The notes under the pieces: model-generated | What the model was told of the DNA's origin: nothing | What the model saw: the letters and a program-made list of their open reading frames with translations, nothing else | Database searches by the model: none | Made by a program: the position numbers and the translations under genes | IMG/VR virus record: IMGVR_UViG_3300042561_000116 | Coordinates: 1 to 64,000 of that record | Strand: one strand, 5' to 3' | Source: a virus | DNA length: 64,000 nucleotides | Part shown: positions 3,708-31,773 of the stretch, piece by piece | How the letters are laid out: every line of letters starts with the position of its first letter | Numbering within the stretch: the stretch's first letter is position 1

Positions 3708-3980
3708 ATGTTATATATTATAGAACCCCGCACAGAATCAGACAAAGTGGAAGCTGTTGGCTCCCCTGATGTCGCACACTCCTACGCTTATGGAGAAAAC
3801 ATGGTCACTTACTATGGAGATGAGTACAGTCAAACTATCCAATTAGGAACTATAGTAAACTGTAATGAAGTAATGTCTATTGTAACTAATGTTCTTCCTA
3901 TGAAATTTGGAAGAGTTGTTCTTACAGTAGTTCCTGCTTATCCTATTTCTAAAACTACTACAGGTGCTTTAAAACGTTAA
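3708..3980 (+). CDS. Unknown small protein
   Basis: The product has 90 residues, starts at ATG 3708 five bases after the NinB-like stop, and ends two bases before the next start. Composition suggests a small beta-rich fold (alternating V, T, Y and I in the second half, ending PISKTTTGALKR). No cysteine pairs, membrane segments or catalytic motifs are visible. Tight packing supports it as a real gene. Confidence 0.65.
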   Translation: MLYIIEPRTESDKVEAVGSPDVAHSYAYGENMVTYYGDEYSQTIQLGTIVNCNEVMSIVTNVLPMKFGRVVLTVVPAYPISKTTTGALKR

Positions 3981-10480: not shown

Positions 10481-13400
10481 TTAACGTCTACCTACTTCCT
10501 GAGAGAAATCAGAGAGTTCAGATTGTTTTTCCCTAATCTTAACCTTATCTCCTTCTAGACTTTCTATCTGAGACATCAAAGAAGCTTTAGTATCAGAATC
10601 TTCTATGTAATCAAGTTGACGCTGCATAGATTTAATTTGCTTATCAATTGAACTAATATCACTCTTTGATCCTTTTATCTCTGAATCAAGAGTTTCAATA
10701 AACCAACGAGGGTTCTTGCTTTCGTATTTACGATAAAGATACTCAGGGTTAGTAAAGAAGTTAGCACTCACACTTAAACCAAACATCTTTTCAATTCTAG
10801 CAAAGAACTCGTATTGACCTTTCAAAGTTGGATCTGGCTTATAACGTTTAGGATTAAGGATCTTACCTGTTCTACTTCTTTCAATGTATTCATCGAACAT
10901 GTTTACATCATCCATAGGATTAATGAAGTCAGCAGTAAGTTTAGTAGCTTCCCAAATTCCTTGGAAAGGTAAGATTAAGTTTTTGTCCAAGTAGTACTGT
11001 CCTATACTCTTTCCGTCTACGTTGTTCATAACCCTAGAGTGTACAATAGAAGCAGCACCATATACAGGGTTAAGCGTACTTAACTCGTCCTCAATTAAAA
11101 GAAGATTATAAAGCAAGAAGTATGCTCCAAAAAGGTTATCCTCGTCATCATCATCTGAGTATACCAAAGCATTCAGAGCCATCATAATACCAGTACTGAT
11201 TGTCAATACAAGCATATCATAAACTGCAGCCATTGCCTCAGACTTTTCTTGAGGAGTCATTAAACTATTTACAGCAGCAAAGGAGAATCTATTCTGCATT
11301 AAATGTTTAATAGCTTGTACAAATGTTCTAAAGTAACCTTGGTGTTCCATACCTGCACCATACATCATACGCTTAGAACCAAATCTCCTAATAAACTGAT
11401 AGGTAAACCATCCTTTCATATATCCAATCCATCTACCTAAAGTATATCTAGAGTACTCTCCTTTATCCATAGCACTATAAGCACCATGAATTAAAGAGTT
11501 AACTGCGTTAACTTTCTGTCTAAATGCATTCTCTACTCCAGCAAAAGACTCTAAGTCTTTAATGTTGGGGTCAGGTTTCATTACCCCATCCTCAACAACG
11601 TAAGCATCCATAATAGATTTGAATGTACCATCATTCATCTCGATAGAGAATTGCTTAGACATAGCTTCTGCTACACCACTACGCATTTCAAATTCACCAA
11701 AAGTACGTACAAAAGAAAGCATGTAAAGAGGATTGTATCTTCTGCTAGCCTTTTCTAAAGCTGTTGCATATACTCTTTTACCAGACTCAGATAAATGATC
11801 TTCGACCATGATATTAAAGTAACGCATCTTTTGAATGTACGGTGAGTCTACGCCATCCTCTACATAAGATCTAAATAAATCCTGTAGGTATTTAGCGTTC
11901 TTAGCCATTGCAACAGTTACATCCTTACGGCTAATGTCATAGGTTTTCAACTGTTCAAAGATGTTTATAGTACCTGCTCCAAAGTTCTTTAAACTTGAAG
12001 GAAGACGAAGACTAAGAGCTAACTCTGCTCCAATACCTAAAGACTTATCTGCTGCCCACTCTACTGCATTTCCAATCTTACTATTTGTAAAGGTCTTTCT
12101 ACTTTGTCCTTGTAGTTTTCTCTCAAACAAATTAGTAATCATCTTTTGTATCTTACTGCCAGGAATCTTTTCGTTTAATACATCTTGAATACCATACAAG
12201 TAAGGAGCATTAGCGTAAGCTTTCTTAAATCTGATTAAGTCTGTTCCATACATAGTCAAGCTGTTGATGAAGTTTACACTCATCTTATCTGCAGCCATTG
12301 GACTATTATACCTTAAGAATAGTCTACGATTCACTTTACTAATCATAGAACCTTGAGTATCAGCAACCAATTCATCATCAGTCTTAAAGGTAACCGTATC
12401 CATTATGTTAGAATACACACCTTTTATTTGTGATCCAATAGTACCGAATTTTTTATTACCTAAAGATTCAAAACCCTCTTTCATAACAGAAGGTAACTCA
12501 AGTCCTTTTTTAAGGTTTCTTGGTACACCTTTCTGCATCTGACCGTAAGTGTCTATAATTTCAGACAGAAGTTGTTTCTGTTCTGTTGACAAATTGTTGT
12601 ATTCAGAATTCTGATACTTGGTCTTACTATTAATTAGAGGTATACGCTTAGAGTTTTTACTTTTACCTACCGATTCTTTTCTATAAGCAGGATTGATTGT
12701 AATAGTCTTCCAACGGAATGATGGCTCATTATAACTAATGTAGTCTTTGTTAGTAGGCTCTGTAGTCATCCAGTAAAATAAAGGTTCATCTTGTGCTACG
12801 TAGGTCTGAGCAGACTGATTGTATTTAAAGACTGTCTTGTGATTCATCTTATACCAAGTACTTTCAACTAATGCAGTTTTAGCATCAGCAGTTAACATAG
12901 TACCCTTAGTATCTTGTGCATACTTAGAAGGATTAGCAGCAGCTAACTTTGCACGTTGTTCAGCCAACTTAGCACTGTACACTTCTACATAAGCAGGAGT
13001 ATAAACCTTTTCTTGAATTTCAGCTAACTCAGAGAACAAGTTCCTAAGTGTTGTTCTGTCTGCTCTAGACAAAGTATCACTAATTTCTTCTTGAATATAT
13101 TCTTTAGCTTCTTCTAATTCTTTTTCTAACTCAGCAATACGGATAGGAATGTTTACTTCTCTAACAACACCGTTTTCTTCTACGGTAACAGTCTCAGTAG
13201 GAATCTTAGATCCATCATAAATGTTATCGTTATTCTTGAATCCTTTAAGTAAGCCAAACATCTCATCCCATATCTCTGTAACAGGACGTACCATCATAGT
13301 ATCTATCTTAGACTGAATAGCTGAAATAGATTCTAAGATAAGTCTTCTTTCTTTGTAGAACTCAGGACTAATCTTTCTTACTGCATTATTAGATCTCCAC

Positions 13401-16294
13401 AAATCGTAGTTCTTCTGAATAATGTTTAATGTATTCTTTTTACTTTCTATTACTTCCTCAGGTTGATTAGTAGCTATAGCATCCTCCAATTCTAATTTAA
13501 CTTTATCAACCATACCCTTCTTACGTTGAAGCTGGACGTTGAATAAGTTTTTGTTAGTCTCAGTTAACTCATAGTTGTAAAGTTCAGCAGCAGTCTTTTC
13601 CTTCTTCCACTCACGGATACTTACTGCAATACGTAAACCCTTTTCATCTTTAAGAACACCGTTAATGTCTGTATCAGACTCTAGTCTATCTAGTTGTAGT
13701 TTTAAGTCTTCTAACTTATCTAATTCTTCTTCGTTATTCTCCTCGTCTAAAGAAGATGCTTGGATCTTACGCATCTCTTCAATGATCTCTTCTCTTGCAT
13801 TTCTAGCTTCCTCAGATAATAGGTCTTGTATACGATAGTATTCATCAGTGAAAGGACGCTCTTCAAACTCATTCTGAAGGTTTACTAGTTCATCTTCTTT
13901 CTTCTTAATCTCAGCCTTAACTTGATCTGTCTGATTCTTTTCGTTCTTTAACTGTTGGATAGCATGGATTAAAGTTGTTCTATCATTCTGATAAGCAATC
14001 TCGTCCATCTCAGTATTAAAAACTAGTGTCTCACGCTCAGCTAACTCTCCCTTTTTAATTTCTAAGACTTTTACCTTACGGATATAAGGACCAAAAGTAT
14101 TTTGGAAATCTAAACCTGTTAAGTTTCTTCCTCCTTGTGACTTTGTAATCTTCTCAAGTCTATCACCTAATTGTCGCATCTTCCTCTCTAAAGCAATAGA
14201 CTCCGCATTAGCTTCGTCAAACATCTTAGTTAAGAAAGATCCTACTGATCCAGTAATAACATTACCACTTAAAGCAGCAGACTCTGTATATAAACTAAAG
14301 AGATTAATATCTTTTAACTTACCACTAAAGGCATCAATTAAGTTTTTCTCAGTAGCAAGTTCGTTAAGTTTTTTCTTCTCTCCAGCAATCTTATTTTTTA
14401 AGTTCTGAGCAAGAGTGTTGTTACCTGCAGCTAAAGCATTTTCGTAATTCTTTTCAAACTGTTCTACGTTTTTCTCTATAGTTGCTCTTAAAGCACCTGT
14501 CTGTGGAGCAACCTCTCTAGCTAATTTTTCTGCAACAGCCTTAGTAGCTTTGTCAATATAATTCTGAGTAAGAGCATTAGCCAATTGATCAACGTTTTTT
14601 ATTTGAGCATTCAACACTGTACCTACTGCTAAACCTGCTTCTCCCATAATACCCTTATACTCTTCCATTACCTGCTTAAAGTGTTCTCCTAACTCTCTAG
14701 CATGGTAAGATTGTCTAAACAATTGTTCTTGAGTATATACTCCACTTGTATACATAGAGTCCATAGAAAGCTGTAAGGATCTAAGGTACTTAGCTGTATC
14801 ATGGAAGTAAGTAACTAAAGATTTAAACGCTTCTTTAGCGTCTCCTACAGAAATATTCTGCATAGACTCTTCAGACTTATAAAGAAGAGGCAAGTTAATC
14901 TTTACGTTGTTAGCCTCCATAAAGATTTTACGCCAATCAATAGCATCTGATTCTAAGAACCTAGCTAAGTCTTGTTGAAAGTCTCCATTTGATTTTAAGT
15001 AAGCTTCAGCTTCTTCAATCTGAGTAACACTCATTTGATAGTTAGCACCATCTTCTTCTTGATTAGGTCTAGTTAAGTTCAAAGAGTTGTTAAACACTAC
15101 CTCGTTAAAGTAGTTATCAAGTAACTCGTCTAAAGCTTCCTGAGTAGGAACATCCTTCTTGTTAACTTTATTTAAACCTAACTTGTTTAAGATAAACTCC
15201 CAGATTCTTTCAAAGATATTCTGAGCATACTCAGGTTCTTGTTTCTCTATAAGATTTCTAAACTCAGGGTTGCTTAAGAACTCACTTACAAACTCTGCTT
15301 CATCTAATAAACCATAATATAAATCACTAGGATGTTGAGCTGCATACTTAGTCTTATAGTACATGTAAGCCTCTCTGATACCTTGTTGAAGTTTCTTATC
15401 TGTTTCTGTAATAGGAACTGCTAAAGCAGACAATGTAGCAGCATGCACTAACTCGTGAATGAAAAGCTTTCTAAAGAAATCTAAATCTAAGGAAGTAAGT
15501 GCTAGAGGATTCAAAAGAATCTTCTGCTGATACGCAGAGTAACGAGCAATACCTATACTGTCTTTGTTCTTATCAAACTTATCTGTGTAGGTTGCACCTT
15601 TAAAGAAACTAAGTCCTAAGTCAGGATTAAGTTTAACTACACCTGCAAGTTTTCTAAGCAACTCCTTCTGATAGAACGGAGTGTTAGGATCATTTACAAT
15701 CTTAGTAATGGTATCAAATACATCAGGCTCTACAAAGTCAATATACTTTCTAAGGTACTCAATGTTAGTACCAGTAGTCTCAGCACCTAAGTCAAAGATC
15801 TCTTTCTCTAAAGTCTGAGCCATATTCATCTTATAGCCATCTAATCCTGCAATAGGATCTAGTCTATAAGTTCTTTCTCCAGGCGCCAAAGAAGGATCTA
15901 CAACTTCTATCTCGAAAGCAAAAGTACTATACGGTTTATTATCTAAGATAATTTGACGAAGCTGATCTATGTTATACTCTTCATCAGGAGTCATTCCATG
16001 CTCATCATAGAACTTTTGTACAGCAGTAGCATACCTTAAGCCTTTAGGACCTAATTGAATACCTGCTAACTGAATAAACTGTTCAATGTCTGGCTCAGGA
16101 TTAGGACTAAGACTTGTGTTACGCTTAAGTGGTCCCCAAGACCTAGTACTCTTTTGATTATCATAGACAGCATCTAAAGTAGATTCAATATACTCAGAAT
16201 CTAAATTAAGCTGAGTTAAAAGGTATCCGACTAAAGAAGTATGTCTATCTCCTGATATAGGATTGTTTACGTGTATAATACAAGCTTTGCTCAT
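10481..16294 (-). CDS. Giant virion protein with zincin-like metallopeptidase motif (probable ejected cargo protein)
   Basis: The product has 1937 residues. H280-E-L-V-H284 is a zincin zinc site, with an acidic D-E-A-E-F-V-S-E-F segment about 45 residues later that could give the third ligand. Residues about 600-1100 hold long coiled-coil stretches. Near the C-terminus a hydrophobic segment (VLTISTGIMMALNALVY) could span or insert in a membrane, followed by another coiled coil. Crassviruses carry several giant proteins beside the virion RNA polymerase that are packaged and ejected; position and size fit that role. The peptidase might mature cargo or act on host envelope or cytosolic targets. 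The active site is seen; the function is inferred. Confidence 0.75.
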   Translation of the reverse strand: MSKACIIHVNNPISGDRHTSLVGYLLTQLNLDSEYIESTLDAVYDNQKSTRSWGPLKRNTSLSPNPEPDIEQFIQLAGIQLGPKGLRYATAVQKFYDEHGMTPDEEYNIDQLRQIILDNKPYSTFAFEIEVVDPSLAPGERTYRLDPIAGLDGYKMNMAQTLEKEIFDLGAETTGTNIEYLRKYIDFVEPDVFDTITKIVNDPNTPFYQKELLRKLAGVVKLNPDLGLSFFKGATYTDKFDKNKDSIGIARYSAYQQKILLNPLALTSLDLDFFRKLFIHELVHAATLSALAVPITETDKKLQQGIREAYMYYKTKYAAQHPSDLYYGLLDEAEFVSEFLSNPEFRNLIEKQEPEYAQNIFERIWEFILNKLGLNKVNKKDVPTQEALDELLDNYFNEVVFNNSLNLTRPNQEEDGANYQMSVTQIEEAEAYLKSNGDFQQDLARFLESDAIDWRKIFMEANNVKINLPLLYKSEESMQNISVGDAKEAFKSLVTYFHDTAKYLRSLQLSMDSMYTSGVYTQEQLFRQSYHARELGEHFKQVMEEYKGIMGEAGLAVGTVLNAQIKNVDQLANALTQNYIDKATKAVAEKLAREVAPQTGALRATIEKNVEQFEKNYENALAAGNNTLAQNLKNKIAGEKKKLNELATEKNLIDAFSGKLKDINLFSLYTESAALSGNVITGSVGSFLTKMFDEANAESIALERKMRQLGDRLEKITKSQGGRNLTGLDFQNTFGPYIRKVKVLEIKKGELAERETLVFNTEMDEIAYQNDRTTLIHAIQQLKNEKNQTDQVKAEIKKKEDELVNLQNEFEERPFTDEYYRIQDLLSEEARNAREEIIEEMRKIQASSLDEENNEEELDKLEDLKLQLDRLESDTDINGVLKDEKGLRIAVSIREWKKEKTAAELYNYELTETNKNLFNVQLQRKKGMVDKVKLELEDAIATNQPEEVIESKKNTLNIIQKNYDLWRSNNAVRKISPEFYKERRLILESISAIQSKIDTMMVRPVTEIWDEMFGLLKGFKNNDNIYDGSKIPTETVTVEENGVVREVNIPIRIAELEKELEEAKEYIQEEISDTLSRADRTTLRNLFSELAEIQEKVYTPAYVEVYSAKLAEQRAKLAAANPSKYAQDTKGTMLTADAKTALVESTWYKMNHKTVFKYNQSAQTYVAQDEPLFYWMTTEPTNKDYISYNEPSFRWKTITINPAYRKESVGKSKNSKRIPLINSKTKYQNSEYNNLSTEQKQLLSEIIDTYGQMQKGVPRNLKKGLELPSVMKEGFESLGNKKFGTIGSQIKGVYSNIMDTVTFKTDDELVADTQGSMISKVNRRLFLRYNSPMAADKMSVNFINSLTMYGTDLIRFKKAYANAPYLYGIQDVLNEKIPGSKIQKMITNLFERKLQGQSRKTFTNSKIGNAVEWAADKSLGIGAELALSLRLPSSLKNFGAGTINIFEQLKTYDISRKDVTVAMAKNAKYLQDLFRSYVEDGVDSPYIQKMRYFNIMVEDHLSESGKRVYATALEKASRRYNPLYMLSFVRTFGEFEMRSGVAEAMSKQFSIEMNDGTFKSIMDAYVVEDGVMKPDPNIKDLESFAGVENAFRQKVNAVNSLIHGAYSAMDKGEYSRYTLGRWIGYMKGWFTYQFIRRFGSKRMMYGAGMEHQGYFRTFVQAIKHLMQNRFSFAAVNSLMTPQEKSEAMAAVYDMLVLTISTGIMMALNALVYSDDDDEDNLFGAYFLLYNLLLIEDELSTLNPVYGAASIVHSRVMNNVDGKSIGQYYLDKNLILPFQGIWEATKLTADFINPMDDVNMFDEYIERSRTGKILNPKRYKPDPTLKGQYEFFARIEKMFGLSVSANFFTNPEYLYRKYESKNPRWFIETLDSEIKGSKSDISSIDKQIKSMQRQLDYIEDSDTKASLMSQIESLEGDKVKIREKQSELSDFSQEVGRR

Positions 16295-16318: not shown

Positions 16319-19300
16319 TTAATTATTAGTTTTGCACTTAACAGTTTCAGAGTCTGTTTTGCTAGTAGACTTTCTTGCAATAGTCAACTGAGTAGATTCT
16401 GGAACATCCTCAAATCCTCTTAAGCTATCGCTATTGTAAAATCCATCATCAGAGAACCCAGGATCATCGTAAGTATCTTGTTCATCCCCAGGTACAACAT
16501 CATTTGTATTCTGATCCTCTTGTGCTTCTACTACCTTAGCTTTAGTGTAACGAGGGAAAAACTTATCTAGTTCTTTCTTACCTCTTTTGTTTTCCAAGAT
16601 AACTACGTCCTTGATGTGATCTTTCAAAAGCTCTGCTATTTCAGAATCAAGACTACCTCCATTCTCTAAGTAGGATTTCTTCATATCTTTTAGAGTATCA
16701 GATAAACCTGCAGCTACGTCAATATAAGACTGAATAGGAAGATAAGGCTGAATGCTTCTATAACGAATATTAAATCCTTGACTTACAATAGTTGCATTAG
16801 CTACATCACTGAAGAACTGAGATACTTTAGGATCAGGATGATTCAATCCATCCATGTAAGCTTTTTGAACAGCATCTACTGTGTCAGGATCTTTCTCGTT
16901 AGTCTTCATTGTAATGTAGAACATGTTAGTGTTCTTTACATCAGTAGTAGTAAAGTTTCTTAAGAATAAGTTTTGACGAGAGAAGTCTCTTAACTCAATG
17001 TTCTTATTATCTCTAAACAACTTAATGAACTGTGCCTTTAGGTTATTCTCTTTTCCTTTTTCTAATAGACCTGATGTTCTTCCATACTGATTGTACAAAG
17101 AGTTTGATCTATCTGTACCATACTTTTGTATCAAAAGATGCATGAATCCATTAAATATAGTGTTGATTCCTTTTAACTTAGCTTCTGTACCAAAGTATTT
17201 TCCGTTGATAGAGTTTAACAAAGTTTGTTGAACCACTGGTAAAGTGATAACATCAAACAATTGGTTAGAGATAGTCTGTGATTCTTCTATAATGTTGTAA
17301 GGAGATACTACACTATTGTTAAGAATCTTATCAACTGACTCTTCATTAAAGGACTGTCTAGCCTCATTGATAGTATATGAGGTACTAAAGAAATCAGTAA
17401 TACTCCTATAGTTATTAGTGTTAAAGTCAATATTAGAAGTCAAACTTAATAACTTGTCATTCTGTTCCTTTGCTATCATAAACTGACTTAAGAAAGCAAT
17501 TTGTGCAGCTAAGGCTGTCTCTGCACCTTCTTTGTTATCTTTAGCATCCTTAGCATTTTCCAAGATAGTATTGTATGCTCTTCTATCGTTCTCAATATAT
17601 GGAGGATAGTTTTCTTCTGTAAAGTTCTTTAAGTGTTTATTAAAATAATCTCTACTGAGAACGTCTGTAATAGTTGCATCCATATCTACCATAGACTTGC
17701 CATTAACTTCCTTCATTATAAAAGGAATCTTAAGTACTTTTAATCCTTCTAGGATATAAGCATTAGCCTTTCTACCCTTAACTCCTAAGGTTGTTCCTAT
17801 ATCTCCTACATTAGAAGTACGTAAGTAGTGTTGAATGATAGGTTGGTTAACAAGTAAGATAGCATCTTCAATAGGAGTACCATTAAGAACCATCTGAAGG
17901 ATGATAGGCGTTCTTACCTTATCTGAGTTAAAGTAGTTGATCCAGTCTTCTTTCTCGATATCTACGTGACCATTAATGAACTCGTTAATAATGTCAGAAA
18001 TCAAGTGCTGTTGGTCTGCATCTCTAAGTCCACCTAAGATAATAGAACCGTTTTTATCTTTGTTAGACTTTAATATATAGTTTCTAGTTAAGTAGTTTTC
18101 AGTAAGTTTTAATCCAGTCTGTTGGAAGAGTTTATGCAAAGCGTTTACCTTAGCATCTACACCAAGAGACTTCTTACCAATAGTGTTTTCTTTAAAGATA
18201 GCCACAGAAGTCATCGGAGAGAATACTGAACTAGCACTAATAGTTCCACCCTTACCTCTTAAAGTTAAATATCTTTCTGCAATAGCTTTAACAATACTAT
18301 TAGCGTTAGGCTTAGTAAAGCGAGAATACAAAGCAGGCTCGGATAAAACATCAGAGATAACTTTAATCATCCTATTAGAAGAAATGTTCTTAATGTTCTG
18401 AGGAGTATATGCCTGTAAAGAATTTAAGTCTTCGTTGATTGTCTTTAGATTAGCTAGAGTAGAAACCAAAGTAGGGTTCTGCTCCTTTAATTGCTCTATA
18501 CGTGCAATCAACATCTTAATACGTAAGTGTGCACCTTCTACCAATGGGTCATCGTAAGATGCTTTCCTAGTAGACAAGTCATACAATACTCCTTTTAAGT
18601 TCTTGATGTCTTTCTCATACAATCCTTTTACAATGTAAGCACCTGTATTATTTAAGAGTTCTTTAATCTCTTTCTTACTTTGTAAATTGATAACTCTCTC
18701 TCTTATGTTGTTAAGCATGTCCTTCGTAAAGTCTGCAGAGTCTACAATAGAATCATCTATTACATTACCTTCAGAGTCTAGCTTAGGCTCATACATAAAC
18801 AACTTATCTATATCAAAGTCAGATCCAGACTTAGTGACAATAGAAGGAGGAACAATGATTACAGGACCTGCAGAAGTAGGTAAGAGCTGTCTTACTCTAA
18901 AGTATTCCATAGAGTTAAATCCTTGTACAGGAATACGTACTCCTACAATAGTAATCTTATCAGAGTTTTGTGCTACCCAAGCATCGTCTTCTAGTGCTTT
19001 ATTTAATACATCTAAAGTTCCAATACGTTCTCCGTTCCAGGTAAGATTAAGTAAAGGCTGATGTTTCTTTGGGTTAAAAGCAACCTTGATATCTGCAGGT
19101 TGAGTTTTACCATTCTCTACACGATACTCTCTTAAACCTGATGTACCAAACTTAGCAACTTGCTCTGCTGTAGGTTTTGCAAAACGAGTTCCTAATTTAT
19201 TAAATCCTGAAGAAGCTAACTGAATATAAGCCTCTCCAAACATCTTAGGACGTAATACACGCTTAGACAAAGAAGAAGTGATTACACTCTCTACTAAGTT

Positions 19301-22300
19301 ACGTTGAGCTGAACCATCTAAAGAACGAGCAAAAGAACTTTCATCTAGACTATCTATGTAGATGTACACAGAGTTAGGAATGTCTTTCTTATCGAACTCT
19401 TTAAACAACCATTTTTTGAATGCTGGTACAGAGAAAGAAACTAGCTTTCCTTCGCTATCTACTTCTGCCTCAATCTGAGTATAGATCTTTGCTTTCTCTG
19501 CATTAACTACGTTTTGAGTTAAAGTAATAAAAGACTCTTGTAAGGCATTCATCTTACCTTGTATACCTGAAAACTCAGGATTGATGTCTCCGTTTACATA
19601 GAAGTCTCCAAACAATAACTTGACTAACTGTGTAGAAAGAGTTGCTTCATTTTTAAACTTAGGAGCAATGTACTGCTGTCTACGTAACCCAACCATAGGA
19701 AAGGTTAAAATGTTTTGACTAGGGATCTTATTAACACTTAGTGTAGTTCCCTCTTTATAGAAAGGAACAGACTCTACAGGTATAGACATTTTGTTTCCAG
19801 AATCAAAGGTTGCAAAGTCTACTCCCTTCTCAAACATATCTAACATAAACCCTTCTAAGTCTGTATCAAACGCAACAGAAGGAAGCAAGTTAAACACAGA
19901 GTACTTACCCATAGTAACGTGCTTAGCACTCTCTAAAGGAGAACCGTAGTAACCTAACTTCAAAGAAGTCAAGATACCTTTGTTAGACATGTTAATTAAA
20001 TTCAGTACTTCTTGTTTAGTACCTTGATTGTTTCTGTAAGCCTTAATAGCTTCCAATACTTTAACTTCATGCTCGTAAGCCTCTTCCAATTCAGGAAGCC
20101 ACTCTCCAACAGAATTAAGATAGAAGCGAATAAAGTCTAAGTTTGCATATGCTTGGGCATCAGACTCTTTTTGTTGTGCAAACATATCATCTAGGTTTCC
20201 TTTGATCTCTTCTTTTGCAGCTAAAATAACTTCTGCTTTCTTTGCCTTAGAAGCATTTTTAGGTAACAAACTCAACTTCCACTCTACAAAGCCGTCTTCA
20301 ATTTGTTTCCTTAAAACTTCTTCTTGGCTTGTGTTGAATGAAGGAATATCTTTAAACTGTAAGTACTTAAAGTTTTCATCATAATCCCTAGAGTTTCCGT
20401 TAATTGTTTTCTCTAGTCGTCTAGCAAGTTTAAGATCTGTATTCCAACTAAGTAGTGTTTGATCATCTATAATAGGTTGCTTACCTGGAGAAATAGAACC
20501 TCCTAAACGTTTAAACAATTCTCTCCAGTTATCGTCTTTAATATTAAAGTTAGAAGGATCTCCTACGATAGTATGAATGTATTCTATCTGATGAGTATTG
20601 TAGTTAGTTAAGTAGAACAAGATAATAGCATCAATTTGATCTGCAGTATAAGCTCCTCCCTTTTTACTTTGATACAGTTTATTAAAATCCTTAACAAAAT
20701 CCGAATCCTTACCTTGAGATATTGTCTCTACCAACCCAAGTTTAAAAGATCTCAGTTGGTTTTGATAGTGGGTATCTACAGATTGTTTAAATACTCCATA
20801 CTTAGTATCCCTACCTACAGCAAATAAGTCTCCTACTGCATCAAGTAAAGACTCTTTGGAATCTGCAATCTCTATTAAGTTTTTAACTTCTGCCTGTAAG
20901 TCTTCTGGCAAAATATCTTTTAAGATAATAAAATCAGAACCTCTTACTTCTTTAGGGTTAGATTTAGCCCTATCATCAAACATACGAGATACTTCAAAGT
21001 TCAGATACTCTCTCATCTGAGCAACAACAGAAGAAGCCAACACAGGTTTGTTATTAATTAGGAAGTCGTCTGCACTATAGTATGTTCTATCTGATAAGTT
21101 TCCTTTTATTCTTGTGGCAAAAGAACTACTCTTAGCACCTGGTCTAACATTCTCAAACGTACGATCTACTATGAATCCAAGGAAATCTTGGATAAACTTA
21201 CTATCTGCACTTAAGTTAGTAGTCTTTTTACCTGTCAAGGTACCTACCTGCATTCCAGAGAAGTTAATTACTTCTAATTCTACGGGTTCTCCTGCTTGAT
21301 TTTTTCTACGGTTACCTTCAGAATCAAACATCTTTTTAAACCAAGCACTATGTTTAGGAAAATTGTTTGTTTCAATTCCTAAGTGTCCTGTCAGTTGAGA
21401 AATATTATCTACCTTGTTAATATCCTTGATAGTATTTAACATGTGATTCCATTCACGAATAGACCACTCTAAGTTATTTTCAACACTTAAGTACGAAGCA
21501 GAGTTAGAAGAGTTGTAAAAAGTTTCTACAGTCTCGTAGAAGTTTCTTCTCTCGTTCCTGTAAGTAGTTGCTTTAAATCTATCTTCATAATACTTTTTAA
21601 TTGCATTATCTTTAGGAAGACCTTCTATTGTTTTAGCTAACTTTGATGAAATGTCTGTAGTCCAAGTAGCTGTAGGACCTGAAGTTACTCCAGGAGCAAT
21701 AGCAATAAGATCTGCATTGTTAGACTTACTAATCAAGTCTACCAAAGACATCTTATATATAGCAAACTTAGCCATAAAGTTTATGTTCTTTAAGGAAGCT
21801 ACAGTGATTTTAGGGTTTACTTTAAAGTTAAACTCCTGTTTCTTATTAAATAAAACAGTTTCAGGGATACCTCCGTATAAGTCGATACCAAATACTTCCT
21901 TAAAGAAACGGAAAGCTACTTGATCAGTAAAAGGAACTAAGCTTGCATAATCGTCTAAGACAGATTTAATATCAAAAGTAGGAAGACTAACATCGTTGAG
22001 GTCAGTATTTCTATATCTTCTTGAAGAGTCTTCTATAAAGTCTTGGTCAAACAGTTCTATAAGAGTGTTCTGAGAAAGAGTATTCTCTATGTATACACTA
22101 GTACTAAGAACTTTCTTAGGCAAAGCTTTGTCTGTTGAATCCTCCAAAGACACTCTAATGTTCATAGGAGGAACAGTAGGCATAGAAGCAAACTGCATAA
22201 ACTGAGCCTTAAGTGCCTCTTCAGGTAAAGAAAGTTTACCTTCTGTCCTAGGCATCCTTTCTACAAAGTATTGTAATTGAGGAGAAAGACTAGCAGCATT

Positions 22301-24160
22301 TTTAAGAATAGCTACAGCTTCTTTGTATTGGGTTATCCCACTTACTTTATTTAAGATTAAGTTTTTATTTGTAAGATAATCTCCTACCTGGGGAAGTCCT
22401 AAGATATCTCCTGTAGCCTGTACAATTTCTCCCTTTTCATTTAACTTAATGTCAGGAAGAGTTTTAATAAGTTCTAAGATTTCAGGAGAAGCTAAATCAA
22501 TTGGATTAACCATCTCACTTCCTCTAGAGTCATAACCATTTCTAGTACGTGATTCTTCGTCTGTATTGTCTAATACTGTATCTATATCCTTAGTGTCTTG
22601 GTTATCACTAGTCATCAATACGTTTCCTTTAGAGAAACTTTGGTGATAAGCAACTACCTCAGACCATTTATCCTGACCATCTTTGTTATAAACTAAAGGA
22701 ACTAATGAATCAATACGCTGTTCAATAATTTCAGCTGATGCTGGATCTGCAGTCTCCAACTGAGTTCTGTAGTTTTCAATAGCAGATTCTATTGAACTCT
22801 TTACTTGAGCATATAACTTAGGAACTAACTCATTCTTTAACTTTGAGTTGTTAAAGAAAGAAGCATTGTAACCCATTCTATCAAGTGCTGTATTGAAGTA
22901 ATAGTCCATCGCACTAAGAATCTCTGCTCCTTCTAGTGAACTGTATTCAAAAAGAAGTTTCTCTCCTGAGTTACTAATAACTTCTAAATCAAGTGCTTTG
23001 CTTCTGTTAAGTTTTGTATTGTCTGTGTTGTTTGAAGAACGAGTATACTCATCCAACTTACCTGAGTAAAGCTTCTCAAACAATTCTTCAATAGGAGCCT
23101 TCTGCTCAACGATCTGTCCTTCTGGAGTGACTGTACTTGTTTTAGTAAATAAGTTCTTTAGGAAGTCTATAATACGCTGAAACAAGTTTCTAACAGGTTC
23201 TTCCAACTCAGGCTCTTCTACTTCAAGACTCTTAGCTAATCCATAACTTCTAAACTCTTCTGCAAGTACCTCTTCTATCTGACGACTAGTAAGAGAGTAG
23301 TAAGGAAGTTGTACTCCTCCTAGATTAATAGTTCCAGGACGAGATTGAACCATATTATATAAAGCAGCTTTTTCTGCCTTAGTCAAAAACTTCTGTGTGA
23401 ATTCGTGAAAAGCTTCATGGTAAAGATCTGAGTAATCAGATCCTTTGTATAGTACAACTGCAGACCTATCATCTAACGCAGCTCTCTGTTGTTCCGTTAA
23501 TAGCTTTAACTCAGCATCTGTGTACAAAGTACTTGCAGACTTTCTCCACTCAGCAAATGCCTTAGAGTTTACAACGTTACTCATATTAGCAAAAGTTGTA
23601 AACTGAGCTAGAGGAGATCTAGCAAACCACAAATAAGAATCAAGCAACTGTCTACCAGAAGGTTTATTTAAAGTAGAATCTACTTCAGAATCTATCTGTT
23701 GTAATAGTTCTCTAGTCACTTGCTGTAAGTCAGGCCCAATAGCATCTTGAGTTGGTCTAAAAGCTTCTGCTTTAAATCCTTGTCTTACTTTGTCAATAAT
23801 TTTATTAGCAAGTACCTCTAAGTCCCCACCATTCTTAGTAATATAAGAATGAACTACTTTACTCTGAATGAAAGAGTTGAATGTATCGAACTTAGGATAA
23901 GCTTTTTTAAACTTGTTACTAAAGGTTACTGCGACAGCAAATGTAGCCTTAGCCTCATTACCCTGATACTCCTTAAGAAAGGTATTGTAGATAGAGTTAT
24001 CTACTACAGATTCCTGTTTGTTTTTAGTAATTACCTTTTTGCTTAAAGGATGTCCTTGGTTTCTATTCCACAAGAAGTAAGCAAAGTCTTCTCCTACGAT
24101 ATTCTTAAGAGCATTGAACTCTGCACGGATAGATGGTATACTAAGGTTAGGGCAAATCAT
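16319..24160 (-). CDS. crAss-like virion RNA polymerase with N-terminal zincin-like domain
   Basis: The product has 2613 residues. D1781-F-D1783-I-D1785, in the context S-G-S-D-F-D-I-D-K-L-F, is the metal-binding catalytic motif of the double-psi beta-barrel RNA polymerases related to eukaryotic RNAi polymerases, shown for the crAss-like phage phi14:2 to be a virion polymerase that enters the cell with the DNA. A segment just before it (LPTSAGPVIIVPPSIV) is also typical. Residues 248-252 are H-E-A-F-H, with an E-E-F-R-S-Y-G about 50 residues later: a zincin-like metallopeptidase domain fused at the N-terminus. The enzyme would transcribe early genes before host polymerase is used. It has its own promoter box upstream, and the flanking giant genes are probably its companions in the virion. 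Confidence 0.93.
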   Translation of the reverse strand: MICPNLSIPSIRAEFNALKNIVGEDFAYFLWNRNQGHPLSKKVITKNKQESVVDNSIYNTFLKEYQGNEAKATFAVAVTFSNKFKKAYPKFDTFNSFIQSKVVHSYITKNGGDLEVLANKIIDKVRQGFKAEAFRPTQDAIGPDLQQVTRELLQQIDSEVDSTLNKPSGRQLLDSYLWFARSPLAQFTTFANMSNVVNSKAFAEWRKSASTLYTDAELKLLTEQQRAALDDRSAVVLYKGSDYSDLYHEAFHEFTQKFLTKAEKAALYNMVQSRPGTINLGGVQLPYYSLTSRQIEEVLAEEFRSYGLAKSLEVEEPELEEPVRNLFQRIIDFLKNLFTKTSTVTPEGQIVEQKAPIEELFEKLYSGKLDEYTRSSNNTDNTKLNRSKALDLEVISNSGEKLLFEYSSLEGAEILSAMDYYFNTALDRMGYNASFFNNSKLKNELVPKLYAQVKSSIESAIENYRTQLETADPASAEIIEQRIDSLVPLVYNKDGQDKWSEVVAYHQSFSKGNVLMTSDNQDTKDIDTVLDNTDEESRTRNGYDSRGSEMVNPIDLASPEILELIKTLPDIKLNEKGEIVQATGDILGLPQVGDYLTNKNLILNKVSGITQYKEAVAILKNAASLSPQLQYFVERMPRTEGKLSLPEEALKAQFMQFASMPTVPPMNIRVSLEDSTDKALPKKVLSTSVYIENTLSQNTLIELFDQDFIEDSSRRYRNTDLNDVSLPTFDIKSVLDDYASLVPFTDQVAFRFFKEVFGIDLYGGIPETVLFNKKQEFNFKVNPKITVASLKNINFMAKFAIYKMSLVDLISKSNNADLIAIAPGVTSGPTATWTTDISSKLAKTIEGLPKDNAIKKYYEDRFKATTYRNERRNFYETVETFYNSSNSASYLSVENNLEWSIREWNHMLNTIKDINKVDNISQLTGHLGIETNNFPKHSAWFKKMFDSEGNRRKNQAGEPVELEVINFSGMQVGTLTGKKTTNLSADSKFIQDFLGFIVDRTFENVRPGAKSSSFATRIKGNLSDRTYYSADDFLINNKPVLASSVVAQMREYLNFEVSRMFDDRAKSNPKEVRGSDFIILKDILPEDLQAEVKNLIEIADSKESLLDAVGDLFAVGRDTKYGVFKQSVDTHYQNQLRSFKLGLVETISQGKDSDFVKDFNKLYQSKKGGAYTADQIDAIILFYLTNYNTHQIEYIHTIVGDPSNFNIKDDNWRELFKRLGGSISPGKQPIIDDQTLLSWNTDLKLARRLEKTINGNSRDYDENFKYLQFKDIPSFNTSQEEVLRKQIEDGFVEWKLSLLPKNASKAKKAEVILAAKEEIKGNLDDMFAQQKESDAQAYANLDFIRFYLNSVGEWLPELEEAYEHEVKVLEAIKAYRNNQGTKQEVLNLINMSNKGILTSLKLGYYGSPLESAKHVTMGKYSVFNLLPSVAFDTDLEGFMLDMFEKGVDFATFDSGNKMSIPVESVPFYKEGTTLSVNKIPSQNILTFPMVGLRRQQYIAPKFKNEATLSTQLVKLLFGDFYVNGDINPEFSGIQGKMNALQESFITLTQNVVNAEKAKIYTQIEAEVDSEGKLVSFSVPAFKKWLFKEFDKKDIPNSVYIYIDSLDESSFARSLDGSAQRNLVESVITSSLSKRVLRPKMFGEAYIQLASSGFNKLGTRFAKPTAEQVAKFGTSGLREYRVENGKTQPADIKVAFNPKKHQPLLNLTWNGERIGTLDVLNKALEDDAWVAQNSDKITIVGVRIPVQGFNSMEYFRVRQLLPTSAGPVIIVPPSIVTKSGSDFDIDKLFMYEPKLDSEGNVIDDSIVDSADFTKDMLNNIRERVINLQSKKEIKELLNNTGAYIVKGLYEKDIKNLKGVLYDLSTRKASYDDPLVEGAHLRIKMLIARIEQLKEQNPTLVSTLANLKTINEDLNSLQAYTPQNIKNISSNRMIKVISDVLSEPALYSRFTKPNANSIVKAIAERYLTLRGKGGTISASSVFSPMTSVAIFKENTIGKKSLGVDAKVNALHKLFQQTGLKLTENYLTRNYILKSNKDKNGSIILGGLRDADQQHLISDIINEFINGHVDIEKEDWINYFNSDKVRTPIILQMVLNGTPIEDAILLVNQPIIQHYLRTSNVGDIGTTLGVKGRKANAYILEGLKVLKIPFIMKEVNGKSMVDMDATITDVLSRDYFNKHLKNFTEENYPPYIENDRRAYNTILENAKDAKDNKEGAETALAAQIAFLSQFMIAKEQNDKLLSLTSNIDFNTNNYRSITDFFSTSYTINEARQSFNEESVDKILNNSVVSPYNIIEESQTISNQLFDVITLPVVQQTLLNSINGKYFGTEAKLKGINTIFNGFMHLLIQKYGTDRSNSLYNQYGRTSGLLEKGKENNLKAQFIKLFRDNKNIELRDFSRQNLFLRNFTTTDVKNTNMFYITMKTNEKDPDTVDAVQKAYMDGLNHPDPKVSQFFSDVANATIVSQGFNIRYRSIQPYLPIQSYIDVAAGLSDTLKDMKKSYLENGGSLDSEIAELLKDHIKDVVILENKRGKKELDKFFPRYTKAKVVEAQEDQNTNDVVPGDEQDTYDDPGFSDDGFYNSDSLRGFEDVPESTQLTIARKSTSKTDSETVKCKTNN

Positions 24161-24220: not shown

Positions 24221-24246
24221 AAACCTAAGTATTATAACTTAGGTTT
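24221..24246 (-). terminator. Hairpin at end of the 1955-residue gene
   Basis: AAACCTAAG (24221-24229) and CTTAGGTTT (24238-24246) pair perfectly around an 8-base loop. The stop codon of the gene at 24232 lies in the loop. The U tract on the - strand transcript is poor, while a T6 run follows on the + strand. It may be a weak terminator, an attenuator or an RNA-stability element just before the polymerase promoter. Confidence 0.5.
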
Positions 24247-27200
24247 CTTTTTTATCTGATCTCTGACTTGTTTAGCAGGATTGATACAATCTTCTTTTGC
24301 TTTTTGTGCTTCTTTTGCTTCTTCTTCGTCAAACATCTCTCCTGCACCCTCACTGTTTACTTTATTTATTATCGCTTGTATGGGACTAACTTGTTCTACT
24401 GGAGGGGGAACAGGTGCAACTGGCTTCTCTTGAGTAGATTGAGATACAAAGTTTTCAGCAGAGGTTCCTGTAATAGACATTGGAGACTGAGATAAGTCTA
24501 TACCTGCCAACTCTGCATCATCTTTTCTTAAAAGAATAACGGGAATACCTGCTTTATCTGTAGGAATAATAGCAAGAATAAAGTCTCCTTCAATATTAGG
24601 ACTGTAAGGAACTTGCTTAGCTTTGATTCCTTTGCCTTCTTTAACCTCTCTTACTACTACCTGATAAACAACATTAGGGTTATCGTTGATAGACTGTAGT
24701 GCCTGTTCGTATGCAACCTTATCATAAAACATTCCTCCTTGCTTAAACAAAGAGTGTAAGCCTAAACTCTGAGCAACAGGACTATTCTCTGTATACTCAA
24801 TGATATCTTTATGAGAAGCTGTATATAAAGTCTCACTATTGCTATCTACAACAGGAACAACTGGTTTTACTTCAACTGGCTTTGGAGCAATAGGCTCAGG
24901 CTCAGATTGAACTCCAGGAATCAGAGACACAGATTTTTTTATAAAATCTTCTGTATCAGGGAAAACAGCTTTGTTTAAAGGTCTTAACAACTCACCAGTA
25001 GAAGATACAGGGAATGTATGAGTATCTTTTATATAGTCAACGTAAGACTGTTTTGTTACAGTAGGTTTACCTTCAACCAAAGAAACTCTAAGCATAGGAT
25101 CTCCTGTAGACAACATAGATTTATCTGCTTTATAAAAACTCTTAGATAAGAATTCTTTAAATTCTTTTTTGTTTAATTTCTTGTATACAGGTTTACCATT
25201 AACGTAAGTAGTTTGTATTATATCTAAAGGATATTGAACTGCATCAGTTGTACTTGGGAAATTAGGATTAGGGAAGAAGTGTATACGATTCTTTCTATCT
25301 ACAATGTTAATAAGACTAACTAGATATCTTTCTAAACTGTTTTGGTCTGGAAACTCTTTTGGTAGATTTTCAGAGAATAACAACTCAGCTAAAGCATTAG
25401 CTTCCTCTTCTTGAATATTTGTATTACTTAATATTACAGGAGTACCATTGTTATTGAAATACAATCTACCTAGTGTAAACTTAAATGTTTTACCAAAGAT
25501 AGTTTGACCTGCAGTTTCTGCCAGTTCAAAATCTGGCAACTTTGCATTAGCTACAGTCTCCTCTTGTACTTCGGCAGCTTTCTGTTGAGAAGCTGTTTTT
25601 AATACAAATCCGTAAGATGTTGTATAATCAGTATCAATAGACTTATCAGTGTTCTCAGATAGATAAGGAATTGCTCTTGCTAAGACACCAGTAATTTGTT
25701 TATGTGTATCTTGTAAATCTTGAGCACTACCTCCTTGTTTCTCGTAAGCTTCTTTTGCTTTCTCACTAGTTCTTCCCGCTGAAGGTAAAGAAGCTTCAAA
25801 AGGAAAACCTTCAAAGGTAACAAGTGACTTATCTGAATTAACAACAGTCATAACTACTGCAGAGTTTACAGTAAACCCTCCTCCTTTATTTACTATAAAG
25901 TAATTTAAAGTACCTCTATCAAAGTATTCTTTACCTAACAAATCATGCATAGGTTGAAGAATAGCATCTTGTTCTTCCTGTCCTAGAGATAGCCACTGCT
26001 TCTCTGTCAAGTCTGTGTTTGCAAAAATTTGTTCAATCGTAGCAAAATCTTCTGCTATCTGTTGTGCAGTTTTTTCAGGAAACTTCTGACTCAAGAAAGA
26101 AAGAACTATGCCTTTACGACTCTGTATCCTTGCTTTAAAAGATTGTTCTGCTATATAGTCAATAGCTTTTGAGTTCCTGATATTTGCAGGATCAGTAGCC
26201 ATAATATCTTTAGAATTTATTTCTACTGGTACACTTCTTAGAGGACTAACTAATTCTTTAAGTCTCTCCATACGAACCTGTAACTGTGCATCTAAAGTCT
26301 TATCTTTAATTTCTAATGCAGGAAATGATTTAGCAACTTGTTGACTAGCTACATCAGATACAGCATTAGAGGCAACAGGCGTAGGAGTTGCTGCTTTAAT
26401 AGAGGCAGCAGTACTTGCAGGAAGAGATTCTTCTCTTGCAAATCTATTAGCCATGTATTTAAATCTATCTAAGAAATTTAACTTGTCCTGTACTGTCTGA
26501 AAATCTCTCTTGTTTTGCTTACGAAGTTTTAATTCTTTTTGTAGTTTAGCTTCTAATTCTCCGACAGCTTGATTAAATTGAGTCTCACTTATTTGTTTAC
26601 CCATTAATTGATTAAACAAATCTTTTAACTGTTCAAACTCTTTAGTATTTCTTGAAAAGTTGTTAGCTATATTATTAGTTAAAAACTCAACAAACTTGCT
26701 TGGATAGTCTTGTGCAAATCTATTCTTAAGTACATTAAGAGCATCAGTATATGTTTTAGAATGATTCTCAGTAACTGGAGACTTACCAGACTCATCTACC
26801 TCAGAGTTAATTTCTTCTTCGGTAGGCATGTTTTTTGAAAACGTATCAATGTCTTCAGATTCTTCGGAAGTTAAATCTGTTCTAGGTTGGTCTGCAACTT
26901 GCGCAGATGTTACTTCAGCTCTTCTTTGAATAAATGCTTCTCTTGCTGCATCAAGTTCCTCTACTGTAAATTCTAATCCAGGAAACTCTTCGTTTACCTT
27001 ATCAACGTTATAAGCATATGTTGCAGTAATAGGAGCAGCTTGATCTAGGAAATTACCTAATACTTCTGCTCTCTTCTCAGGAGTTGCTTCTAATAAACCT
27101 GCTAATATTCTTTCTTGTGTCTTTTTAAGATTTTCACTAGCAAGATCAAACATATCTTGATTTATAAAATCACGATTAGATTCAATCTGGTTAAGAAGTT

Positions 27201-30102: not shown

Positions 30103-31773
30103 TTATTCGTCTATTTTAACCCCAATTTGATTAATCATAGGAAGCACATTACTAGCATCTTCTTTTAGAAAGTCTTTAGCTCTTTGTTTTCTTATGAATG
30201 TTTTATCTCCCTCCTGAATAGTATATTGAATCATCTCTTCGGGATTAGATAATTTAGAAAGTAAACCTTTTAATTTTTGTAAATATAGTTCTCTATTCTT
30301 TCCTAAGAGTTGAGTCAATTGAGTACTAGCACCAACATCAACACTATTTTCTGCATTAGCAATTGCTAATACATCAGCAACTGTAGATTTGTTTCTACGA
30401 ACTCCTGATTTATCTACACTAAAATTTTGAACAAGAGTTTTTCCATCATCGGAAAGTTTAAATCCGCCTAAGTTAGCAATACCTACATTAAGAGCTGTGT
30501 TCTCTGCAGTACTTGTACTCATAAGATCTGTAAAGTCTTGGTAGGTAGCAAAGTTTTTAGAATTAAGATCTGCATCTTTTGCAGGCATAAATCCTACAGG
30601 TGTTCCTTGCTTCTTACTAGATGATCCATCAGCAGAACTACTCAATCCCATTTGATCTAGTAAAGCTGCTTTCTGAATATCTACCTGAGCCTTTGCTTGG
30701 TACTCTCCAATGTTCAGAGAACTCTTATACGCTTCTAATGTGTATTTGTTTTCGTTAAGATCACTTTCTACCTGTTGATAAGCGTATCCTTCTGCAGCAT
30801 TAAATACTTGGTCATCAATCAAATAGGATACTAATTCAGCATCGTTGATTGTATCCAAAGTCTTACTTGCTTTGTCCGCAGTAGCATCTCTGTACATCTT
30901 AGCCTTTTTAATTTCAGCATCCAACTTAAGAGTCATAGGATCGTTCTCTCCTAACTTACTTACAGCTTGTTGTCTCTTACCTTCAAGTTCTTCAACCTGT
31001 CTGTTATAAGCGCCTAAATTACTTTGTTGAGACTGTTGCCATTTTTCAAATACATTCTCTTTGCCTTTTACATCTAGACTGTATGAAGCATCCATTTGAA
31101 GTTGCTCCATTTCTTGTGGAGTAAGAGAAGACATATAGGCTTTCATGAAACGTTCTTGGTCTACTCCAGAAATCTTTTGTTTAGTAATCCAACGTCCGTC
31201 AGCAGATTGTTCGTAAACAGTTTCAATGTTAGGCTTAAGATCTTTTTCTAACTCTCCCCATTTCTTAACTACTCCGTCTGCATAAGGCTTATATTGAGAG
31301 TATCCTAGTTGAGCACCTACGTTAGGATTATCCATCCAAGACTTAATGCCTTTAAAGTAAGCATGATCATTAGAAGGAGACTTAAGTTTAGGATCTAACT
31401 TCTTGTAGTCTTCCATCATTTTAGTATAATTCTTGGAAGAGTTTACAGCATTAATTAAGTTAGAATCACTTTCAAATGGTTTACCTATACCTAAAACAGC
31501 TTGTACGTTAGACTTATTTGAGAAGTCTAAGCCTGCACTCTGATTGATAGCTTTAACTAATCCACCCATAGACTTATCAAAGTACTCTTTATCTTGGTCT
31601 TTAACTAGTTGGTTTCTAATCTGACCATAAGTGTCTATTTGTTTTTGTACTAAGCTTCTACCTTCATCGTACATTTCCTGCTTCTTAACAGCAAGCTTAA
31701 TTAACTCGTCTGCTGGAAAAGGAGAGATATAATCTGGGTATTCAAATTTTGTATGTCTAGCTGATATCGGCAT
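30103..31773 (-). CDS. Helical virion protein, probable cargo or internal tail protein
   Basis: The product has 556 residues, almost entirely helical and charged with heptad patterns (EELEGKRQQAVSKLGENDP region), and no cysteine motifs or signal peptide. It sits between the 771-residue cargo-like gene and the 1955-residue gene with 5- and 3-base gaps, so it is translated from the same message. Size and position fit a crassvirus cargo or tail-barrel-plug protein. No direct family recognition. Confidence 0.6.
   Translation of the reverse strand: MPISARHTKFEYPDYISPFPADELIKLAVKKQEMYDEGRSLVQKQIDTYGQIRNQLVKDQDKEYFDKSMGGLVKAINQSAGLDFSNKSNVQAVLGIGKPFESDSNLINAVNSSKNYTKMMEDYKKLDPKLKSPSNDHAYFKGIKSWMDNPNVGAQLGYSQYKPYADGVVKKWGELEKDLKPNIETVYEQSADGRWITKQKISGVDQERFMKAYMSSLTPQEMEQLQMDASYSLDVKGKENVFEKWQQSQQSNLGAYNRQVEELEGKRQQAVSKLGENDPMTLKLDAEIKKAKMYRDATADKASKTLDTINDAELVSYLIDDQVFNAAEGYAYQQVESDLNENKYTLEAYKSSLNIGEYQAKAQVDIQKAALLDQMGLSSSADGSSSKKQGTPVGFMPAKDADLNSKNFATYQDFTDLMSTSTAENTALNVGIANLGGFKLSDDGKTLVQNFSVDKSGVRRNKSTVADVLAIANAENSVDVGASTQLTQLLGKNRELYLQKLKGLLSKLSNPEEMIQYTIQEGDKTFIRKQRAKDFLKEDASNVLPMINQIGVKIDE

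Follow-up and report, generated by a model that had tools for sequence, protein, structure and literature searches.

Among the crass-like phages, the polymerases phi14:2 gp66 and crAss001 gp50 combine a DFDID-type core, a p3-RNAP-G gene order and giant cargo proteins, and the locus presented here is like them in all three respects and in having the same terminal cysteines. For crAss001, gp47, gp49 and gp50 have been found in virions, with bands of 150, 270 and >300 kDa on reducing gels, according to the accessible part of PMC6235969. The accessible part of PMC10172136 reports resolved interchain disulfides in the tail and portal-vertex proteins of crAss001, a virion map in which the cargo is mostly unresolved and a proposal that this cargo is partly unfolded and ejected ahead of the DNA. 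The disulfides described in that part hold the shell and the tail together, with none described there for the cargo, unlike the arrangement that we propose below.

The N4-like phages (Schitoviridae) have a giant ejected RNA polymerase (vRNAP) fused to an HExxH zincin, as does our locus (accessible parts of PMC5512222 and PMC12633501); in the N4 vRNAP, HELVH is found at 2228 of 3500. The MPTase of N4-like vRNAPs is C-terminal of the polymerase, however, whereas the first zincin domain of our locus (zincin 1) is N-terminal, at about residues 165-345. Since N4 gp50 (the vRNAP), gp51 and gp52 have no cysteine, unlike the giant proteins examined here, N4 is without the couplers discussed below. Within the crass-like phages, phi14:2 gp66 and crAss001 gp50 have no HExxH, in contrast to our polymerase, which has zincin 1 within its N-terminal 430 residues. 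The gp45 of p-crAssphage (BK010471) is annotated as "RNAP associated protein fused to zincin protease," i.e., with the zincin on a cargo protein adjoining the RNAP; that zincin lies near the p3 C-end, whereas ours is on the catalytic RNAP, and the two are likened by annotation only.

The polymerase and its genomic setting

The window, i.e., the whole stretch of DNA analysed, covers 64,000 nucleotides of a 71,123-base virus record (IMGVR_UViG_3300042561_000116), and all features given here are on its minus strand. Its polymerase, P0001 (16319..24160), has 2613 aa and 2 Cys. As the preliminary description had stated, the DFDID catalytic motif (residues 1781-1785; 18806..18820, codons checked) and HEAFH (residues 248-252) are on this one chain, each occurring once. 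The RNAP core used for searches (residues 1381-1880; 18521..20020) is related by tblastn to crAss-like RNAPs. With tblastn, the middle of P0001 (mostly residues 1155-1821) matches 73 phage records (best E 1e-15, cr53_1; Fpv1 5e-10), and the best 40 of these 73 matches come from Flavobacterium phages or from uncultured crAss-type (cr) phages of the human gut. Crassvirus families are found in the window for the muzzle (crAss_MUZ, 3.3e-37) and the capsid (Crass_capsid, 2.4e-31), as well as for the portal and TerL, and the window's gene order is that of phi14:2, namely G (g065), RNAP (g066) and p3 (g067). On account of the tblastn relatives, the Crassvirus families and this gene order, we assign P0001 to a crass-like phage as its catalytic virion polymerase, its presence in the virion and its activity being presumed by analogy with crAss001 and phi14:2. 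The earlier assignment to the virion-type RNA polymerases is thereby upheld, with crass-like relatives over the DFDID core and crassvirus structural genes around it.

Alignment A3 matches the solved phi14:2 polymerase (6vr4) at 2.4e-98, a circular result given that A3 itself includes the phi14:2 row, and alignment A1, without that row, has no match at 0.1. Pfam and PHROGs gave almost no matches for the three whole giant proteins. In a tree of 72 cores, the window falls in a supported environmental clade (98, starred), apart from the named families.

P0001 lies between P0003 (p3; 24232..30099, 1955 aa, 1 Cys), whose family matches the N-terminal half of fused chains, and P0002 (G; 10481..16294, 1937 aa, 1 Cys), a relative of phi14:2 g065. 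We refer to P0003, P0001 and P0002 as the first, middle and last cars of a train. Two further proteins precede the train and are outside it, a C2-like cargo protein (30103..31773, 556 aa) and a 771-aa protein in place of cargo protein C1 (31779..34094; role by position only), both with 0 Cys. A search of crAss001 gp45 against the window's record gave no match and was uninformative.

Putative zincins of the polymerase and its neighbour

Zincin 1 (about residues 165-345; 23126..23668) was delimited with alignment A4 and a predicted model. Its HEAFH motif (23405..23419) would provide two His ligands and the general base, and E297 of the E297...E301 pair on the next helix (23258..23272) is the probable third ligand. 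A lone HExxH motif is weak evidence, since 30 of 2000 shuffles of P0001 contain one (0.0135 expected by composition), and it is because of its conservation that we judge zincin 1 to be real. Across the 60 sequences of A4 (residues 1-433, identity down to 17%), just six columns show no variation, namely Y247, H248, E249, H252, E297 and F327; seven full-length relatives keep H248, E249, H252, E297 and E301. A4 mixes rows from two scans, and the first wide scan cannot test conservation of the motif because YHE[SGA][FW]HE was one of its two search patterns. The other, unbiased scan used core patterns only and was not keyed on HExxH; it yielded 80 loci, near-copies included, with the upstream part present for 70. 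Zincin 1 is found in the RNAP chain of 54 of these 70 polymerases, with HExxH kept in 54/54, and is absent from the other 16, of which 13 (L067, L068 and L070-L080; near-copies again included) retain the second zincin next door. The same state, without zincin 1 and with zincin 2, is found in phi14:2. In a later set of loci, 33 polymerase chains were examined and 22 have a zincin-1 profile match, reading HExxH in 14, HExxE in six and WExxR in two; no HExxH at all was found in L220, L221 and L241, each a single chain with a length between 5.1 and 5.6 thousand residues. Conservation of the two His and the Glu across relatives, on which the preliminary description had staked its reading, is therefore complete in A4 and in the unbiased scan but fails in 8/22 later-set domains.

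In the predicted model (pLDDT 73.8, poor before the motif), helix 245-258 bears the motif and helix 292-312 bears E297. Among solved structures, the model comes closest to an M34 peptidase domain (residues 678-773; Z 5.0, rmsd 3.6, 76 aligned), and because an unrelated row in the same fold list reaches Z 4.9 against the 5.0 of M34, the fold is suggestive only. The zinc ligands of the M34 domain are presumably residues 686, 690 and 735, which the matched ranges would put near 248, 252 and 297. Foldseek gave no match at E <= 0.001 for the zincin 1 model, and the A4 profile found almost nothing in Pfam and PHROGs and likewise in PDB sequences. P0001 likely carries an N-terminal gluzincin-like, polyvalent-type putative peptidase, with supported ligands and a suggestive fold. 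We observe that its position between p3 and the RNAP core is constant and that the gene break shifts around it: the break precedes zincin 1 in the window clade, follows it in crAss001 gp47 (profile E 3.6e-12) and cr85_1 (1.6e-12), and is absent in fused chains.

The second zincin site that had been noted on the adjacent 1937-aa protein is there as described, with HELVH at residues 280-284 of P0002 (15443..15457) and E334...E338 on the probable third-ligand helix (15281..15295, from alignment A5 and the model). H280, E281, H284, E334 and E338 are invariant in A5 (21 sequences), and residues 239-368 match phi14:2 g065 at 1e-10, including the HEIMH of g065. The zincin 2 model (pLDDT 70.8) consists of helix 58-71, strands 78-112, helix 122-143 and helix 183-192, i.e., the N-helix, three strands and two helices by which the accessible part of PMC5512222 describes polyvalent MPTases. 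SprT-like matches were obtained for 9/21 A5 members (best 1.5e-5; the window's own match is under the family cut-off), MPTase-PolyVal matches for 2/21 (best 0.036) and a profile match to projannalysin at 5.7e-4. Selecase and M34 entries fill rows 1-24 of the fold list (Z 5.8-5.2), and Foldseek gave no match at E <= 0.001 for this model. On the strength of their invariant His and Glu residues, both putative zincins look real.

With respect to function, the likeliest role of the putative zincin is one that follows entry, with a neighbouring protein or one of the host as its target, and it would not be indispensable to release in all lineages. A polyvalent reading, in which the zincins would enter the host and cleave a host protein (e.g., one of its defence or envelope) like other polyvalent proteins, is one that we consider possible though less likely than not, and it is favoured by the exchangeable, effector-type C-terminal domains that relatives append to their polymerases (in L021, NADAR at 7.3e-13, cpYpsA at 3.8e-9 and DUF7831 at 3.6e-8). 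The presence of zincins also differs between lineages, and the zincin 2 model resembles selecase and an injected M34-type peptidase. This reading has to accommodate zincin 1 residues that are very constant for a fast-evolving effector.

The preliminary description had suggested that the peptidase could process its own chain or open the way in the host. In the former case, zincin 1 would cut the cargo chain in cis after ejection and free the polymerase, and zincin 2 would do likewise at the other joint. The position of zincin 1 between p3 and the RNAP core wherever the gene break falls, or without a break, is what this would lead one to expect, as are catalytic residues that are invariant in A4, and N4-like vRNAPs are always fused to such domains, with processing proposed for them in the accessible part of PMC5512222. 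We nevertheless consider it doubtful. The HExxH losses in the later set and its absence from three single chains of more than 5000 aa speak against it, as does the RNAP-G fusion of Intestiviridae, where 4/4 chains are without any HExxH. Moreover, crAss001 gp47, with an intact zincin 1 near its C-end, seems to be packaged near full length: virions with gp47 show the 150-, 270- and >300-kDa bands, so that no large cut before packaging is apparent. Zincin 1 is also gone from the 13 loci named above, with the N-terminal segment retained in those read. Given the motif losses, the HExxH-free fusions and the near-full-length packaged gp47, self-release of the polymerase is no general rule and may be possible in some lineages.

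Two related ideas were tried and rejected. Polymerases without zincin 1 do not start just past the missing domain, as if processed, since in L067-L080 the N-terminal segment is kept and the zincin is missing internally. That fused joints need a nearby zincin was rejected as a rule, although most p3-RNAP fusions have one: the p3-RNAP fusion of Fpv3 has no HExxH upstream of the core, and several later-set fused chains lost theirs.

Terminal cysteines at split and fused joints

Of the 6505 residues that make up the p3, RNAP and G proteins of the window, only 4 are Cys, and every one of these is located at an end facing the next protein. Cys 1938 of P0003 (24286..24288; 18th from the C-end) faces Cys 3 of the RNAP (24152..24154), and Cys 2609 of the RNAP (16334..16336) faces Cys 5 of P0002 (16280..16282), the four being putative C-terminal and N-terminal couplers. 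Taking residues 2-8 as the N-end and the last 35 residues as the C-end, the chance that two randomly placed Cys of P0001 land one in each is about 7e-5. Among the 25 window genes outside the train, one has a Cys at residues 2-8 and four have one in the last 35; 18 control ORFs gave 0 and 0 terminal Cys and are too few to weigh.

A discovery set of 122 loci, reduced to 61 by clustering of the RNAPs at 80% identity (with a near relative standing in for the window), gave the same pattern. The inner ends carry Cys almost throughout (p3 C-end 41/41, RNAP N-end 43/43, RNAP C-end 59/60, G N-end 56/57), and the outer ends do not (p3 N-end 0/16, N-end of fused p3-RNAP 0/12, C2 N-end 0/10, C2 C-end 0/10). 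One miss, L096, concerns an ORF of 5005 aa in which another HExxH lies at 3861 and which we read as p3, RNAP and G in one chain, and the other, L020, has a start M-P-R-H-C in another frame. Exactly two Cys are found in 37/42 complete split RNAPs and exactly one in 16/16 complete p3 proteins. G has a Cys in its last 20 residues in 5/40 cases, and the next ORF begins with Cys in 3/3 where it is present; the resulting 0/35 for the C-end of a last-car G holds by construction, these five having been moved to the chain list, and carries no evidential weight. Extra breaks in the third car (L049, L050 and L087) carry new Cys pairs. Related genomes do not count as independent cases; the tree implies a minimum of four changes in whether p3 and RNAP are fused, of which two are required by starred branches, and the long branches of Fpv3 and phi14:2 call for caution.

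Two later scans keyed on Intestiviridae and Steigviridae cores returned 108 loci, 100 of them with an RNAP ORF of >1300 aa (table 11); four loci had already been seen, and 86 new loci were left after clustering. We observe that the two sides of joint 1 agree in 53/55 cases (34 with both Cys, 19 with neither, two discordant; Fisher 1.4e-12, uncorrected for kinship) and those of joint 2 in 51/51 (48 both, three neither, none discordant; Fisher 4.8e-5). Of the discordant loci, L180 has a start MACRYW in another frame, and L194 has an upstream 787-aa ORF that was judged not to be p3. Five long chains of 5005-5639 aa (L220, L221, L223, L229 and L241) have 0 Cys. In L239 and L261, the break falls inside the RNAP itself, about 270 residues ahead of the motif, and a Cys pair is again present at the ends so created. 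The core identity with crAss001 is roughly one quarter to one third in these phages, as in those with an additional break in the third car.

Named phages differ in which joint is fused. Steigviridae, in which both joints are split, have both Cys pairs (crAss001, phi14:2, cr85_1, cr111_1, DAC15 and cr106_1). In Suoliviridae, where p3 and RNAP are fused, an N-end Cys is found on the fused chain in 0/6, a Cys followed by the 1-10 last residues in 6/6 and an N-end Cys on G in the 5/5 read. In Intestiviridae, where RNAP and G are fused, the p3 C-end has Cys in 4/4, the RNAP N-end in 3/4 as annotated and the last 35 residues of the fused chain in 0/4; the RNAP without an annotated N-end Cys, crAss002 gp33, reads M-S-C from an internal Met some 34 residues past the annotated start. 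In each of the three families, it is only the pair of the fused joint that is missing. Cysteine scarcity is not universal, since internal Cys occur in the gut families and are frequent in the Intestiviridae of the gut (1 to 27 for each RNAP chain, with 27 in L159; p-crAssphage gp44 has 8 Cys), and the end cysteines are kept nonetheless. Across these predicted proteins, the end counts show that each car has a Cys at the end facing its neighbour and none at its free outer end, and that fused joints are without the pair.

A proposed disulfide-coupled train

Since the pairs sit at facing ends, are absent from outer ends and vanish together on fusion, and given the crAss001 tail and portal disulfides and the proposed ejection of cargo before DNA (accessible part of PMC10172136), we propose that P0001 is the middle car of a train P0003 - P0001 - P0002 that is coupled by disulfides and uncoupled in the host cytoplasm, a reading to which we assign a probability of roughly 0.6. 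Within the particle, an interchain disulfide would connect the C-terminal Cys of each car to the N-terminal Cys of the car behind it. The tail could then be traversed by a single chain of about 6500 residues in a set order; on arrival, the bonds would be opened by the reducing cytoplasm of the host, and the polymerase, once free, could refold and begin the transcription of early genes. Because assembly itself takes place in a reducing cytoplasm, late formation of the bonds would be required. On balance, we also favour the more general form of this reading. The polymerase machinery of crass-like phages would then be ejected as at least three giant proteins, a single disulfide at the termini linking each covalently to the next, head to tail; they would pass through the tail in sequence and come apart in the reducing cytoplasm of the host. 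To keep the chain unbroken, a fusion of genes and a pair of Cys couplers would serve equally well, so that any new chain break would acquire a pair. Other Cys chemistries, such as a metal clip or a thioether, would give the same pattern.

The terminal Cys might alternatively be separate signals, i.e., hooks for packaging, processing or metal binding that do not join the cars. The disulfide bond is one that we infer, and lone C-end Cys do occur outside the train, in p-crAssphage gp47 and crAss002 gp30. Separate signals should, however, occupy one kind of end and survive fusion, whereas here a C-end Cys on one car goes with an N-end Cys on its successor, none was found at outer ends, and the two vanish together; we therefore regard such signals as unlikely. 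Common descent alone, with one ancient split fixing two Cys pairs that all loci inherited, is more improbable still, for although many loci are related and fusion states cluster on the tree, it is at odds with the repeated changes of the p3-RNAP state and with the new pairs at extra breaks, in the third car and inside the RNAP, in phages distant from crAss001.

Zincins on virion polymerases are already known from N4-like phages (accessible parts of PMC5512222 and PMC12633501) and from the p-crAssphage gp45 annotation. What is new here is a zincin on the catalytic chain itself, as well as one domain that is fixed between p3 and the core while the gene break moves. With the fused zincin, the polyvalent-protein concept reaches beyond the virion polymerases of N4-like phages to those of crass-like phages. 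As for the cysteine rule, we found no description in the literature searched, most subscription papers being outside our reach, and an earlier mention of the terminal Cys or the zincin is possible in two founding crass-like RNAP papers.

If the proposed disulfide-coupled train is true, exact cross-linked peptides are predicted, and existing non-reduced crAss001 virion data might show them. The pairs to be expected in crAss001 would be gp50 ICGANTLYEL with gp49 CAIIPQVR and gp47 CNS with gp50 CITTNSTIEELAAK. For crassviruses, the most abundant viruses of the human gut, a covalent train released by redox, if true, would account at once for the order, threading and release of proteins of 150-300 kDa that exit the capsid via a narrow tail.

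Zincin motifs in related phages

We observe that the HExxH motif of the first zincin, the domain in the N-terminal part of the virion RNA polymerase, is replaced by HExxE in the related phage loci L226, L232, L248, L249, L255 and L259, and by WExxR in L222 and L223. The polymerases of L067, L068 and L070-L080 lack this zincin part internally, with the N-terminal polymerase segment being retained among those read and the second zincin still present on the neighbouring protein. Furthermore, the third protein of L035, L039, L042 and L048 has an extra N-terminal part that bears an additional HExxH (HEVAHRGM).

Gene structure and terminal cysteines

The polymerase gene of the gut phage cr116_1 (MT774389; L153 11998-22863) is interrupted exactly at GSDFD and seems to resume two ORFs further on; the interruption is probably an intron, and cysteines are retained at the outer ends of the polymerase. 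With respect to crAss002 gp33 (NC_055828; L145 13243-25980), the annotated start looks too far upstream, and an internal Met gives an M-S-C start, as in relatives. At L020 18542-19182 and L180 3700-4100, the N-terminus with the expected cysteine is out of frame with the rest of the protein, which is a frameshift or an assembly error. Outside the p3-polymerase-G cargo train, we observe a single C-end cysteine on p-crAssphage (BK010471) gp47 and crAss002 (NC_055828) gp30; both proteins precede p3, and in neither case does the next protein begin with a partner cysteine.

C-terminal domains of the polymerases

The polymerase chain is extended at its C-terminus in the relatives L021 (17483-19444) and L014 (17483-22279), and these extensions carry NADAR, cpYpsA SLOG and DUF7831 domains; the cr126_1 polymerase is annotated as DUF1768. 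The virion polymerase thus bears tails that are exchangeable and effector-like in these relatives.
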